From contig CAKZXA010000018.1 of assembly GCA_937922045.1 (NCBI GenBank), positions 1 to 38,278 on the forward strand: 38,278 nt of DNA, read 5' to 3'. The translations under genes were made by a program, and so were the position numbers. The notes beneath the pieces are model-generated. The model was not told the origin of the DNA and searched no databases. It worked only from the letters and a program-made list of their open reading frames with translations. Shown here piece after piece: positions 1 to 16,383 of the stretch (position 1 is the first letter of the stretch; each line of letters opens with the position of its first letter). Source of the stretch: an uncultured Acidimicrobiales bacterium. Its GTDB lineage: Bacteria; Actinomycetota; Acidimicrobiia; Acidimicrobiales; SZUA-35.

Positions 1-418
<418 letters not shown>

Positions 419-12381: not shown

Positions 12382-12941
12382 AGACTCAGCACGTCACTTC
12401 CGGCACTGCTGAGAATCAGTCCACTCCCGCCCTCGCCGGCCCGCAGAACGGTGACTGCCCATGAAGACAAGGCAGCGACATGGGCGGAATCGGCTTCGCC
12501 TGGAGCGGGCAAGCGCCCGGTCGACAACAACCGAGCTTCAGAATCCCAGCAGCCCACGATGAGAGATCGCAGGGTCGGATCGGTCGCGGTCGGGGCTGGC
12601 GTCTCCGGCTGAATTCGTGGCGACGCTAGTGCCTGAACCACCTCCACAGGATCCGCGATTTCAACGATCGAGGCTCGTTCGCCAAGGGCCTTGCCGAACT
12701 CGATGAGCAATCGACAGCCCGTCGTATCCGACGTTGACCCAGATGGCCCAGATGGCCCAGATGACCCAGATGACGCAGATGACCCAGATGACGGTGAGGC
12801 TAATCCAATCCCGACAACGAGTCCGAACGAACACGGCCGACAAAACCACACCTCATCCGCACTCTCAGGCAGGGAGCGGCGAAGAGCAACGTTCAACCCA
12901 GCAACACCCAGAGCTAGCGGCACGTCAACGGTGGCGGTCAC
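12378..12941 (-). CDS. uncharacterised protein with a Ser/Gly repeat linker, coupled to a STAS protein
   Basis: 187 aa from GTG 12941, which overlaps the STAS-gene TGA in a GTGA; a GTG at 12953 is the alternative. The N-terminal half (VDVPLALGVAGLNVALRR and a CRPC pair near residue 36) is joined to the C-terminal half by a linker of Ser-Ser-Gly/Pro-Ser-Gly triplets encoded by a 9-bp minisatellite. The C-terminal half ends in SWAVTVLRAGEGGSGLILSSAG. I recognise no family and see no clear membrane segment. Coupling to an anti-sigma-antagonist-like protein suggests a regulatory partner, but that is inference. An opposite-strand ORF covers part of this region but is shorter and has no context. 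Confidence 0.6.
   Translation of the reverse strand: MTATVDVPLALGVAGLNVALRRSLPESADEVWFCRPCSFGLVVGIGLASPSSGSSASSGSSGPSGPSGSTSDTTGCRLLIEFGKALGERASIVEIADPVEVVQALASPRIQPETPAPTATDPTLRSLIVGCWDSEARLLSTGRLPAPGEADSAHVAALSSWAVTVLRAGEGGSGLILSSAGSDVLSL
12739..12792. repeat. 9-bp minisatellite, six units
   Basis: Six tandem copies of CCAGATGRC, with one unit starting with G. The unit length is a multiple of three, so copy-number change would lengthen or shorten the Ser/Gly/Pro linker in the minus-strand protein without shifting frame. Confidence 0.9.
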
Positions 12942-13273
12942 CTTGTTGAGCACGAATCAGCTGAGCCGATACGGTCACCATTGTCTAGGGGCAGAACTCC
13001 CTGGAAGCCGGCTAGCTCGATGATGATCTGCACGGCCGGAGACGGGTCTCGCAGGGTGAGGAGGCCGCCGTACTCAGCGAACAACTGCCGATAGTCCACC
13101 AGCATCTCGAGGGCTACGGTGTCGATGAAGCTGACCTCGCTGAGGTCGACGACAAGGCGCCGCACCCGCTGAGACCGGTAGGCCCCCAAGACCCTAGCCA
13201 GCCCTTCAGCTGTGGCCGCGTCCACCCTGCCTTCAGGCCGAATTACCACGCTCGCAGAACCGTCGCTTCTCAC
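12938..13273 (-). CDS. STAS-domain protein (anti-sigma factor antagonist-like)
   Basis: 111 aa, essentially one STAS domain: VVIRPEGRVDAATAEGL, VRRLVVDLSEVSFIDTVALEMLVDYRQ, then GLLTLRDPSPAVQIIIELAGF. In SpoIIAA/RsbV-type antagonists a kinase phosphorylates a Ser in the DS dipeptide of this loop; here the dipeptide is Asp-Thr (FIDT), so Thr would be the phospho-acceptor. No anti-sigma kinase or sigma factor is adjacent; only the unknown partner gene follows, overlapping by 4 nt. GTG at 13273 is the start; the Shine-Dalgarno is weak. Confidence 0.85.
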   Translation of the reverse strand: MRSDGSASVVIRPEGRVDAATAEGLARVLGAYRSQRVRRLVVDLSEVSFIDTVALEMLVDYRQLFAEYGGLLTLRDPSPAVQIIIELAGFQGVLPLDNGDRIGSADSCSTR

Positions 13274-13380: not shown

Positions 13381-13392
13381 TAGGCTTTGTTC

Positions 13393-13797
13393 ATGAAGAT
13401 CGGCGAGCTAGCCACACGCGTCGGCGTGTCAACAAAGACGATTCGCTACTACGAGTCGATCGCTCTTCTCGACGAGCCTGAGCGGACCGAGTCGGGCTAT
13501 CGAATCTATGATGACGAGGCGGCGGAGCGGCTCAGCTTCATTCGTGACGCCCAAGAGTCGGGACTAACCCTGGCCGAAATCACTTCGGTTCTCGAACTGA
13601 AGCAGGCTGGCGCAAGCAGCTGCACCCATACTCTGGGACTGCTCGAACGCCACCTGGCCGACGTTGACGATCAGCTGGCCCGGCTCGAGAAGACAAAGAT
13701 GCAGCTCGCAACGATGGCCGACCGAGCGAGGTCACTCAATCCATCGACCTGCACCGATCCGAATCGGTGTCAGGTAATCGGGAGAGAAACGGTCTAA
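13393..13797 (+). CDS. MerR-family metal-responsive regulator of copA
   Basis: 134 aa. The N-terminal MerR helix-turn-helix is [21 protein letters not shown], then [21 protein letters not shown] and a long dimerisation helix. A metal loop near the C-terminus reads [13 protein letters not shown], a Cys-x5-Cys pair. Counting from ATG 13393, Cys77 falls where E. coli CueR has Ser77. Cu(I)/Au(I) sensors have Ser there; Zn/Cd/Pb/Hg sensors have Cys. Yet a CueR-type operator and a Cu-type ATPase lie immediately downstream, so copper remains the best guess. A TAGGCT hexamer 6 nt before the ATG fits a leaderless transcript. Confidence 0.92.
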
Positions 13798-13830
13798 TCG
13801 CTGAACCCCAGCCGATTACCGAACCAGTCC

Positions 13831-13862
13831 TTGACCTTCCATCCGACTGGAACGTTTATACT
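13831..13862 (+). promoter_or_regulatory. CueR-type operator and promoter of copA
   Basis: TTGACC at 13831-13836 (-35) and TATACT at 13857-13862 (-10) are separated by 20 bp, the long spacer typical of MerR-activated promoters. Between and overlapping them lies the dyad ACCTTCCA-6 nt-TGGAACGT (13834-13855), with 7 of 8 positions symmetric. It closely resembles the E. coli copA operator as I remember it. The -10 ends 6 nt before the ATG at 13869, implying a leaderless copA mRNA. The site overlies only the short merR-copA spacer, which places metal control on copA-copZ. Confidence 0.85.
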
Positions 13863-13868
13863 AAGGGT

Positions 13869-16136
13869 ATGGCTCGCAGCTCCCACTCCAGCAGTGCAGT
13901 CGCAGACGACGACACGCCGTCTAGCGAACATCCCGAACGAGAGCATCAATCCACCACGCTTGCGATCGACGGGATGACCTGCGCGGCCTGCGCGAACCGT
14001 ATCGAACGCAAGCTGACTCGACACGAGTCGGTCGACGAGGCCATCGTCAACTTCGCCACTGGCCGGGCCACCGTCCATCACCGGCCTGAGCTCGCAACCG
14101 ACGAGTTCCGGTCGATTGTCGAAGGCCTGGGATACACCCTGATCGCAGCCGACTCGGCCGACGAGGCGGCCGAACGACGCCAACGAAACCTCACCCATCG
14201 TCTCATTGTGGCCGCAGTGCTCACCGTGCCGCTTATGGCTCTTTCGATGATTCCGGCGTTGCACGTCGAAGGCTGGCACTTCATCGCAGCTGTGATGGCT
14301 ACCCCCGTCACCTTCTGGTCTGGGTGGAACTTTCATCGCTCGGCCTGGCTCAACCTCGCCCATCGCACCACGACGATGGACACCCTCGTTTCGATGGGCT
14401 CGCTCGCGGCCTGGCTTTGGTCGACCGTTGTGCTCGCTCTCGATACGATCGGCCGAGCGCCAACGTCAGGCGGTGGACCTCTTCCGATCTACTACGAAAC
14501 CGCCGCTGTGATCATCACCTTGATCCTCCTCGGCAAATGGCTCGAACACAGGGCCAAGCGGCGTTCAGGGGATGCGATTCGTTCGCTGGCCAAACTGGGC
14601 GCTAGCGACGCTGAGCTTGAGGATGGCAGGATCGTGCCCCTCGACCAGCTCGCGGTCGGAGATCGCTTTGTCGTACGTCCTGGCCAGAAGGTAGCAACCG
14701 ATGGGGTTGTCGTATCGGGGACCTCGGCGGTCGATGCCTCCATGCTTACCGGCGAGCCGGTGCCGGTCGAGATCGGTCCAGACGACGAGGTCGTTGGAGC
14801 CACCCTCAACCTCAGCGGCTTCCTCGTGGTCGAGGCCACCAAGGTCGGCGCCGATACCGCCCTGGCCCAAATCGTTCGCCTCGTCGATGAGGCGCAAGGT
14901 TCACGGGCGGAGGTCCAGCGACTCGCGGATCGTGTCTCGGCCGTCTTTGTTCCAATCGCCCTTGGCGTCGCTCTCATCACCCTGGTCGCCTGGCTCCTCG
15001 TCAGCCGCGATCCAGCCGCCGCCTTTACCGCTGCAGTAGCGGTTCTGATCATCGCCTGCCCTTGCGCTCTCGGGCTCGCCACACCGCTGGGGATCATGGT
15101 CGGCACCGGCCGCGGCGCCCAGATGGGTGTCCTCATCAAGGGGGGCGAGATCCTGGAAGACACCCGGGACGTCGACGCAATCGTGCTCGACAAGACCGGC
15201 ACGGTGACAACGGGAAAGATGAGTTTCGTCACGATGGAGCGCCCAGCTAGCGCTACGGCCAAACCAGGATCTGCTGGCGATGAGGAACTGCTCCGGCTTG
15301 TGGCCGCGTTGGAGTCTCGGTCTGAGCATCCCATTGCCCAGGCGATAGCCGCCGCTCCCCTACCCGCCACCAACGCGGCCATCGTGGCCGATTTCGAGAA
15401 TCACCCCGGCTTCGGTGTCACGGGTCAGGTCGATGGACAAGCGGTTCGAGTGGGGCGACGTTCTCTCTTCGACACGGTGAACCCAACGATCGAAGCCGCA
15501 GCTCAGGAGGCCGAAGCATCGGGCGCCACCGCTGTTCTGGCTGGCCGAGACGGAGCGGCCGAAGCCGTGATCGTGGTCGCCGATACGATCAAGCCGAGTT
15601 CAGCCGAGGCGATCACCGCCTTCGGAGACCTTGGCCTGACGGTTACCCTTTTGACCGGTGACAACGCAACAACTGCCCGTACCGTGGCCGACGAGGTTGG
15701 CATTGACGAAGTCATCGCTGAAGTTCTCCCCAACGACAAGGCTGGCGTCATTCGCCGGCTTCAGGCGGGTGGCAAACGGGTGGCAATGGTCGGTGACGGC
15801 ATAAATGACGCCCCTGCTCTAGCCCGGGCCGACCTTGGGATCGCCATAGGCACCGGAACCGACGTGGCCATCGAAGCATCAGATCTCACGGTCGTGTCGG
15901 GCGACTTACGAGCGGTGGCTGACGCCATTGCTCTGTCCCGGCGGACACTACAAACAATTCGCGGCAACCTGTTCTGGGCCTTTGTCTACAACGCGGCTGC
16001 CATGCCCCTCGCCGCCTTCGGCATACTGAATCCGATGATCGCCGCCGGAGCGATGGGGCTTTCCTCGCTCTTCGTGGTGTCGAACAGCCTTCGACTCCGT
16101 AGTTTCCGAGGCTACCGAGGCACCGCACGACCATGA
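13869..16136 (+). CDS. copA: copper-exporting P1B-1-type ATPase
   Basis: 755 aa inner-membrane Cu(I) efflux pump. One N-terminal heavy-metal-binding domain with GMTCAAC (Cys38, Cys41), then eight predicted membrane segments. CPC lies in [13 protein letters not shown] (397-399), the phosphorylated Asp in DKTGT (441) and the hinge GDGIND at about 642. The last two membrane helices have [10 protein letters not shown] and [15 protein letters not shown], the Tyr-Asn and Met-Ser-Ser signature of Cu(I) (P1B-1) pumps rather than Zn/Cd ones. A GTG at 13767 would add 34 residues, but it lies upstream of the copA promoter and overlaps merR, so ATG 13869 is preferred. Confidence 0.96.
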
Positions 16137-16149
16137 AAGAACAGCTCGC

Positions 16150-16383
16150 ATGACCAACGATGTAGCCAATGACCCGACAAGCAACGGAGGCAACGTCCAC
16201 GTGTTCCCCGTGCCCGATATCAGCTGCGGACACTGCGTCTCAGCCATCACAGAGCAGGTTGAAACGGTGGACGGCGTCACCAGCCTCGACGTAAACCTCG
16301 ACAAGAAGTTGGTTACGGTCACTGGCGGCGACGCCACAGCCATCGTCGCCGCCATCGACGAGGCGGGCTACGACGTCGCCTGA
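16150..16383 (+). CDS. copZ: copper chaperone, heavy-metal-associated domain
   Basis: 77 aa single HMA domain. The metal site is DISCGHCVSAI (Cys-Gly-His-Cys) near residues 26-29, followed by the usual beta-alpha-beta pattern ending in IDEAGYDVA. It begins 13 bp after copA and is almost certainly co-transcribed, delivering Cu(I) to CopA in the cytosol. The CxHC variant of CxxC is frequent in actinobacterial CopZ. Residues 1-15 are a polar extension. Confidence 0.92.
   Translation: MTNDVANDPTSNGGNVHVFPVPDISCGHCVSAITEQVETVDGVTSLDVNLDKKLVTVTGGDATAIVAAIDEAGYDVA

Follow-up and report, generated by a model that had tools for sequence, protein, structure and literature searches.

The locus raises the question of how the copper exporter gene copA is switched on in an uncultured member of the Acidimicrobiales, where its coding sequence begins and to what kind of metal sensor it answers. 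The window, by which we mean the whole stretch of 38,278 nucleotides analysed here, belongs to contig C18; the assembly is 4.88 Mb in size, is 96.87% complete and comes from a group known here chiefly from metagenome assemblies. The original prediction had placed a CueR-type operator before a leaderless copA. We consider it probable that the stretch 13831-13871 comprises the operator and promoter of a leaderless copA-copZ unit together with its start codon, and that the MerR-family protein encoded just upstream activates this unit. The features concerned are as follows.

13381-13386, plus strand: putative merR -10 element TAGGCT, ending 6 nt before the merR ATG (sequence read).
13393-13797, plus strand: MerR-family regulator gene, 134 aa, with C77, H79, C120 and C126 (SCxHT ... 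CTDPNRC; Pfam MerR_1 and MerR-DNA-bind).
13767-13868, plus strand: in-frame upstream extension of the longest copA ORF, from GTG 13767, probably untranslated as CopA.
13831-13836, plus strand: -35 element TTGACC (sequence read; TTGACC, in some cases TTGACA, stands before the copA of relatives).
13834-13855, plus strand: putative operator for a MerR dimer, a 22-bp imperfect dyad in a 20-bp spacer (sequence, conservation, co-occurrence).
13857-13862, plus strand: -10 element TATACT (sequence read; TANNNT at the same place in relatives).
13869-13871, plus strand: copA start ATG, its first base the predicted transcription start (6 nt past the -10 element).
13869-16136, plus strand: copA, copper-exporting P1B-type ATPase, 755 aa (TIGR01511, HMA domain, GMTCAAC and CPC motifs).
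16150-16383, plus strand: copZ-like copper chaperone gene, 77 aa (HMA domain above the Pfam cut-off).

On direct reading, the coordinates given in the original prediction for TTGACC, the dyad, TATACT and ATG 13869 are right. The two boxes are separated by the 20-nt spacer TTCCATCCGACTGGAACGTT (13837-13856), and the dyad, AC(C)TTCCA-N6-TGGAA(C)GT, is imperfect in the bracketed pair and in two of the three central pairs; its centre falls between 13844 and 13845, with the -35 box ending at 13836. TATACT is followed by AAGGGT and then by the ATG, which leaves a gap of 6 nt and puts the first T of TANNNT at -12. CopA passes the copper-translocating ATPase model TIGR01511 (554.8 bits, cut-off 397) and, with a lower score, also the cadmium-family model TIGR01512 (393.7 bits, cut-off 313.5). 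The copZ-like gene begins 13 bp past copA, with which it is probably co-transcribed, and its product has the CopZ model as best NCBIfam match, at 54.3 of 85 bits and thus below the cut-off. The sole match in an Rfam search of the whole window was a partial 16S rRNA gene at its edge (1-418, minus strand); the copA locus gave none.

The longest copA reading frame opens at GTG 13767, 34 codons upstream of ATG 13869 and in the same frame. We rejected this GTG as the copA start because the extension overlaps the end of merR and the promoter and because the distance from the -10 element to the downstream ATG is kept in relatives; for the same reasons the extension is listed above as probably untranslated. 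The latter evidence comes from 78 distinct copA ORFs (window included), taken from loci found by MerR or copA similarity, a set that favours copA genes near this MerR. The element scores at least 22 bits in 73 of them, within 330 nt upstream of the HMA motif. All 73 sites are followed by an in-frame start codon (ATG in 57, GTG in 16) at a distance from the -10 element of 6 nt (n=60), 7 nt (n=12) or 8 nt (n=1). Four ORFs have no site above the threshold (L211, L213, L175 and L130 (degenerate dyad); L and G numbers denote loci and panel genomes, respectively), and in L017 the region is cut by the contig end. The original prediction had named absence of the dyad from close relatives as one finding that would overturn it; the dyad is present before most of these genes, and the prediction withstood this check. 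The locked start gap argues for ATG 13869 as the true copA start, as had been claimed; this corrects the start by 34 codons. The switch and start codon are packed into 41 bp. Among the best 80 of 465 relatives kept from a scan of named genomes, the titles are mostly those of metagenome assemblies of Acidimicrobiia, Acidimicrobiales or families thereof, the exceptions being seven titled just Actinomycetota or Actinomycetes and one titled Demequinaceae. Judged from these sequences, the element is real, common to many related actinobacteria and widespread in Acidimicrobiia.

The reading frame of merR ends 33 bp before the -35 box on the same strand, an arrangement that would suit a leadered copA message, produced for the most part by transcription running on from merR or by a hidden promoter further upstream, with the dyad acting as a roadblock. 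We regard this as improbable: in all 73 sites the start codon follows the -10 element at 6-8 nt, also where merR lies on another contig (L019, L025), and direct reading found no Shine-Dalgarno sequence at a usable distance before ATG 13869. Some readthrough from merR, or a second upstream promoter, may still contribute to the leaderless transcription that we favour. The merR gene itself is probably leaderless too, with a promoter of its own that lacks the dyad: before 88 distinct merR genes (window included), TANNNT matches occur at gaps of 6, 7 and 8 nt in 39, 28 and 3 cases (total 70).

Two minor observations belong to the survey of copA sites. In L027, on the same contig as L130, a degenerate site lies directly upstream of copA with both dyad arms altered together (TTGACCTTGCCCCCGAGGGCAAGGTGCACACT), which may be co-change under selection. 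In L168, the assembly titled Demequinaceae, an Acidimicrobiia-like regulator accompanies a copA with the same element, a case of either wrong binning or transfer.

How far the element exceeds chance depends on which of its parts are counted. The loose pattern TTGACC-N5..30-TATACT has one forward match in the 4.88-Mb genome, and the reversed control gave 1 and 1; with control and genome equal, the -35/-10 pattern by itself was rejected as evidence. Once the dyad is included (up to 3 mismatches), the genome contains one site and the reversed control none, and the same dyad search over 41 genomes yielded 55 matches against 11 control matches. The window site reaches 43.3 bits with a weight matrix built from 29 other relatives' sites, its own left out, while the best background score with the matrix that includes it is 8.8 bits among 678,396 positions (about 340 kb of the window's genome). 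Because TTGACCTT...TANNNT served to choose the 30 training sites, those letters are fixed by construction and carry no independent weight in the matrix. The full 41-bp composite (-35, dyad, -10, six bases and RTG) is found with at most one mismatch in 27 of 198 genomes of the order and not in the control, several of the matches spending their mismatch in the start codon, so that not all are gene starts. The dyad-bearing element is thus above chance, and its chief support is conservation with a fixed start gap.

The element also keeps company with the regulator. A close MerR orthologue, defined by an E-value of 2e-39 or better, occurs in 35 of 99 panel genomes (that of the window included). Counting one copA per genome, the element lies upstream of copA in 30 of 33 genomes with such an orthologue and in 0 of 38 without, several of the latter having more distant MerR relatives. 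The three misses are G010, cut at the contig end, G026, with a degenerate dyad, and G025, without a site; leaving out G025, Fisher's test on 30/2/0/38 gives p = 9e-18, a guide only, because the genomes are related. Of the 76 genomes in which copA was matched, 69 enter the count, in addition to G003 and G029, with G036 and G079 (MerR present), G051, G067, G076, G085 and G097 left out. The element stays with copA when merR lies on another contig (L009, L019 and L025; genomes G006, G008 and G037), and it is missing from the second copA copies of G021 and G064, where a close MerR orthologue is present. Of 88 merR genes, 68 have a copA-type HMA motif on the same strand in the 500 nt that follow, and 3 have it in divergent orientation; in 16 there is none within 500 nt, and in one the flank is too short. 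Together, the dyad, its conservation and this co-occurrence favour the predicted MerR-type operator and promoter with copA as target.

It had further been claimed that Cso/CopY-type repressors are more familiar in actinobacteria. CsoR is indeed commoner nearby: its family (PF02583) occurs in 48 of 64 genomes without the close MerR and in 7 of 35 with it (p 1.7e-7, again a guide only among related genomes), and a search of the window's own genome did not find it.

The designation of the switch as CueR-type holds only for the half-site. In E. coli, as predicted for the window, a MerR-fold regulator controls copA from a dyad between -35 and -10, and the -35 box with the left half-site, TTGACCTTCC, is identical. 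The E. coli system differs in its 19-bp spacer, in a 5' untranslated region with AAAGGAG before the ATG and in a regulator with Ser77 and a C-x7-C loop; promoters of CueR and of HmrR both have a 19-bp spacer (PMC1526738), so the layout is not, as had been stated, that of the proteobacterial copA promoter. The window has a spacer of 20 rather than 19 bp and a dyad of 22 rather than 21 bp, and its regulator reaches 82.1 bits with the CueR equivalog TIGR02044 (cut-off 147.4), failing likewise the CadR-PbrR equivalog TIGR02047 (104 bits, cut-off 151.45). Residue 77 is Cys, as in ZntR, CadR and MerR, whereas CueR and HmrR have Ser, and the metal loop is C120-x5-C126, against the C-x7-C (C112, C120) of CueR.

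Phylogeny agrees with these differences. In a tree of residues 1-116, from which the metal loop was excluded, 26 copper-branch rows, about every fourth of those available, form a group (95/83) nested in a larger actinobacterial one of 44 rows (100/96), to which CueR and HmrR do not belong. An AU test rejected a clade of the copper branch with CueR/HmrR at p-AU 0.024, a single test on 116 residues with few references; there are five outside references, two of them CueR/HmrR, the branches of MerR and CadR are long, and the residue composition of CueR is unusual. The copA target and the identical half-site might be taken to mean that this actinobacterium has a genuine CueR orthologue and a CueR operator to match. 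We consider this very improbable: merA and merB of other actinobacteria are preceded by similar half-sites, and actinobacterial HMRTR proteins share the operator-contact residue pairs of CueR (PMC5045206). Orthology to CueR was rejected on model score, Cys77, C-x5-C, tree and AU test.

For the HMRTR subfamily of MerR regulators, the sites described are 22 bp long and have their centre 8 bp away from the -35 box (PMC5045206), and the window site has exactly that length and centre. A CueR-like half-site is therefore expected here and is no evidence of CueR. The 44-row group contains 18 non-copper actinobacterial relatives and no verified HMRTR reference; one member, L193, is annotated as 'heavy metal-responsive transcriptional regulator'. 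The best sequence match of the regulator among solved structures is MerR of Bacillus megaterium, followed by CadR, and CadR is also the best PDB fold match of an AlphaFold2 monomer model (mean pLDDT 87.1, falling to 71, 56 and 43 in the last three blocks). All 64 aligned relatives in a set not chosen by motif, eight non-copper relatives among them, have C77, H79, C120 and C126. C77 and H79 are invariant also among 85 rows picked by a CxD[PA]NRC loop, a selection that fixes C120 and C126 by construction; four further rows have the loop as DPHRC. We assign the regulator, on its sequence, to an actinobacterial HMRTR-like MerR branch that is sister to CueR and includes mercury-gene regulators.

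The targets of relatives bear on the metal. Six of the 18 non-copper relatives stand before merA or merB: MerA in L179, L186 and L189, of which L186 and L189 are above the cut-off and L179 reaches 440.5 of 454.45 in a truncated ORF, and MerB-domain ORFs in L178, L182 and L193. All six have a nearly identical dyad in a 20-bp spacer (L193:3953-3984, minus strand, for example). Eight others precede a small DF-family or thioredoxin-like protein (L176, L177, L183, L187, L188, L190, L191 and L192), two of which pass the NCBIfam cut-off, with L191 not scanned and L192 without a Pfam match; the same domain forms the front part of the MerB ORF in L182 and L193. The target in L184 is lipoprotein-like, and L180, L181 and L185 have no readable target. 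A 6-nt start gap occurs in L183, L190 and L191 also, so leaderless output is not exclusive to copper genes. The metal can therefore not be read off the operator: near-identical dyads lie ahead of copper genes in Acidimicrobiia and, in other actinobacteria, ahead of merA or merB.

Within Acidimicrobiia, extra sites precede His-rich P-type ATPases, of the type called 'CopB', at a start gap of 7 nt in L174, L198 and L212 and of 23 to 60 nt in L160, L170, L200, L204 and L205; L160, L174 and L200 were scanned with Pfam and the others judged from N-terminal sequence. In L052, which comes from the genome of L212, sites lie before a multicopper oxidase and a lipoprotein-like protein, and L208 has a site ahead of a CopC-CopD fusion. 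Others precede genes without assignment (L199, L201, L202/L203, four in L206, two in L207, and L216). We call the metal copper on account of copA, copZ and these copper-type targets. The system is presumably a copper regulon run by an HMRTR-like, Cys77-bearing MerR in genomes mostly without CsoR.

Two groups of extra sites deserve separate mention. In L203 (78-496), a site with a 6-nt start gap is followed by the gene of a protein of 127 aa that contains CC motifs and matches no Pfam family, possibly a new member of the copper regulon. Two short contigs of genome G021 (L206, L207) bear six operator-like sites that score above 22 bits, before a Rieske-domain protein, a membrane-type protein and others; these point to an enlarged or different regulon. 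A second MerR relative, a more distant one, is present in G021 as well.

We propose that the switch works as follows. A dimer of the regulator would sit on the 22-bp dyad in the over-long 20-bp spacer and hold RNA polymerase idle. On the model of CadR and MerR, a metal ion, most likely Cu(I), would then bind near C120/C126 from one subunit and C77 from its partner. Binding would distort the spacer so that -35 and -10 are aligned, in the way described for CueR and its kin, where metal binding distorts the DNA and both boxes become usable by RNA polymerase (PMC9909328). Transcription is predicted to begin at the A of ATG 13869, ribosomes would start on the leader-free message, and CopA and CopZ would then clear copper, with CopA exporting it.

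In the literature, Cys77 goes with MerR proteins that respond to divalent metals (PMC9909328, PMC11591864), which speaks against Cu(I) as sole inducer. The regulator may thus be a broad soft-metal sensor for Hg, Cd, Zn and Pb as well as Cu, with copper induction of copA one response of several. Besides Cys77 and the relatives before merA or merB, this would agree with Salmonella CueR S77C, which responds to Cu and divalent ions, and with Rubrivivax CadR, which is involved in CopA expression with copper (PMC11591864). We think it possible yet rather doubtful, because the assignable Acidimicrobiia targets are copper-type genes and because the CTDPNRC-type loop, among the rows examined, is found only in the Acidimicrobiia copper branch. 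CadR, PbrR, ZntR and MerR resemble the window regulator in their Cys at the CueR Ser77 position and differ from it as divalent-metal regulators with T-E rather than C-K operator-contact pairs (PMC5045206). The alternative we advance tentatively, with slightly less belief than doubt, is that copper sensing arose a second time, in the actinobacterial HMRTR-like branch, with Cu(I) bound through C77, C120, C126 and perhaps H79, the operator nearly unchanged and CsoR largely replaced in this lineage. If true, this second origin would break the Ser77 rule, the likely Cu(I) sensor bearing the "divalent" Cys77. The copper-branch and mercury-gene regulators are in any case natural close homologues for testing the basis of metal selectivity (+1 versus +2) in MerR proteins.

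The leaderless arrangement at copA is supported by the first T of TANNNT at -12 and by the conserved gap; the claim that joining such a switch to leaderless translation is unusual fares less well. Across 378 kb of the window's genome, mechanical calling gave 303 ORFs with 837 candidate starts; TANNNT lies at a gap of 6 nt from a candidate start in 20 of these ORFs and at 7 nt in 19, against about 2.8 per gap elsewhere, a mean that leaves out gaps of 8 and 9 nt (9 and 11 ORFs). More than twenty percent of genes are given as leaderless in Actinobacteria, where TA-led genes have TANNNT about 12 bp before the start, as at copA (PMC3160421). With this -10 placement common in the genome as well, a leaderless copA is ordinary here; it differs from TA-led genes in that its -10 element is part of a MerR-type over-long promoter.

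Among described systems, actinobacterial HMRTR has the same site layout and shares its operator contacts with CueR, as noted above, while the available part of its account mentions neither a copper regulon nor leaderless targets (PMC5045206). CvkR of Anabaena is a MerR-type regulator whose own and target mRNAs are leaderless, as predicted here, and it represses a CRISPR-associated transposon with no metal link (PMC9938897). In an Arthrobacter genome, MerR-type 'copper-responsive' activators were named from similarity to CueR (PMC9436591), and for Frankia it is reported that operons with metal genes contain no metal-related merR (PMC4531530). No description of this regulator or of a MerR-activated leaderless copA was found by title or abstract start among the open-licence PMC papers listed, within which a MerR-type copper switch of the HMRTR-like branch with a leaderless target would be a variant so far undescribed.

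Two further observations concern the minus strand. Direct repeats of 9 bp (about GACCCAGAT) occur at ~12734-12800, within an ORF of 191 aa without a Pfam match, and a STAS-domain protein is encoded at 12938-13273, adjoining merR on the opposite strand.
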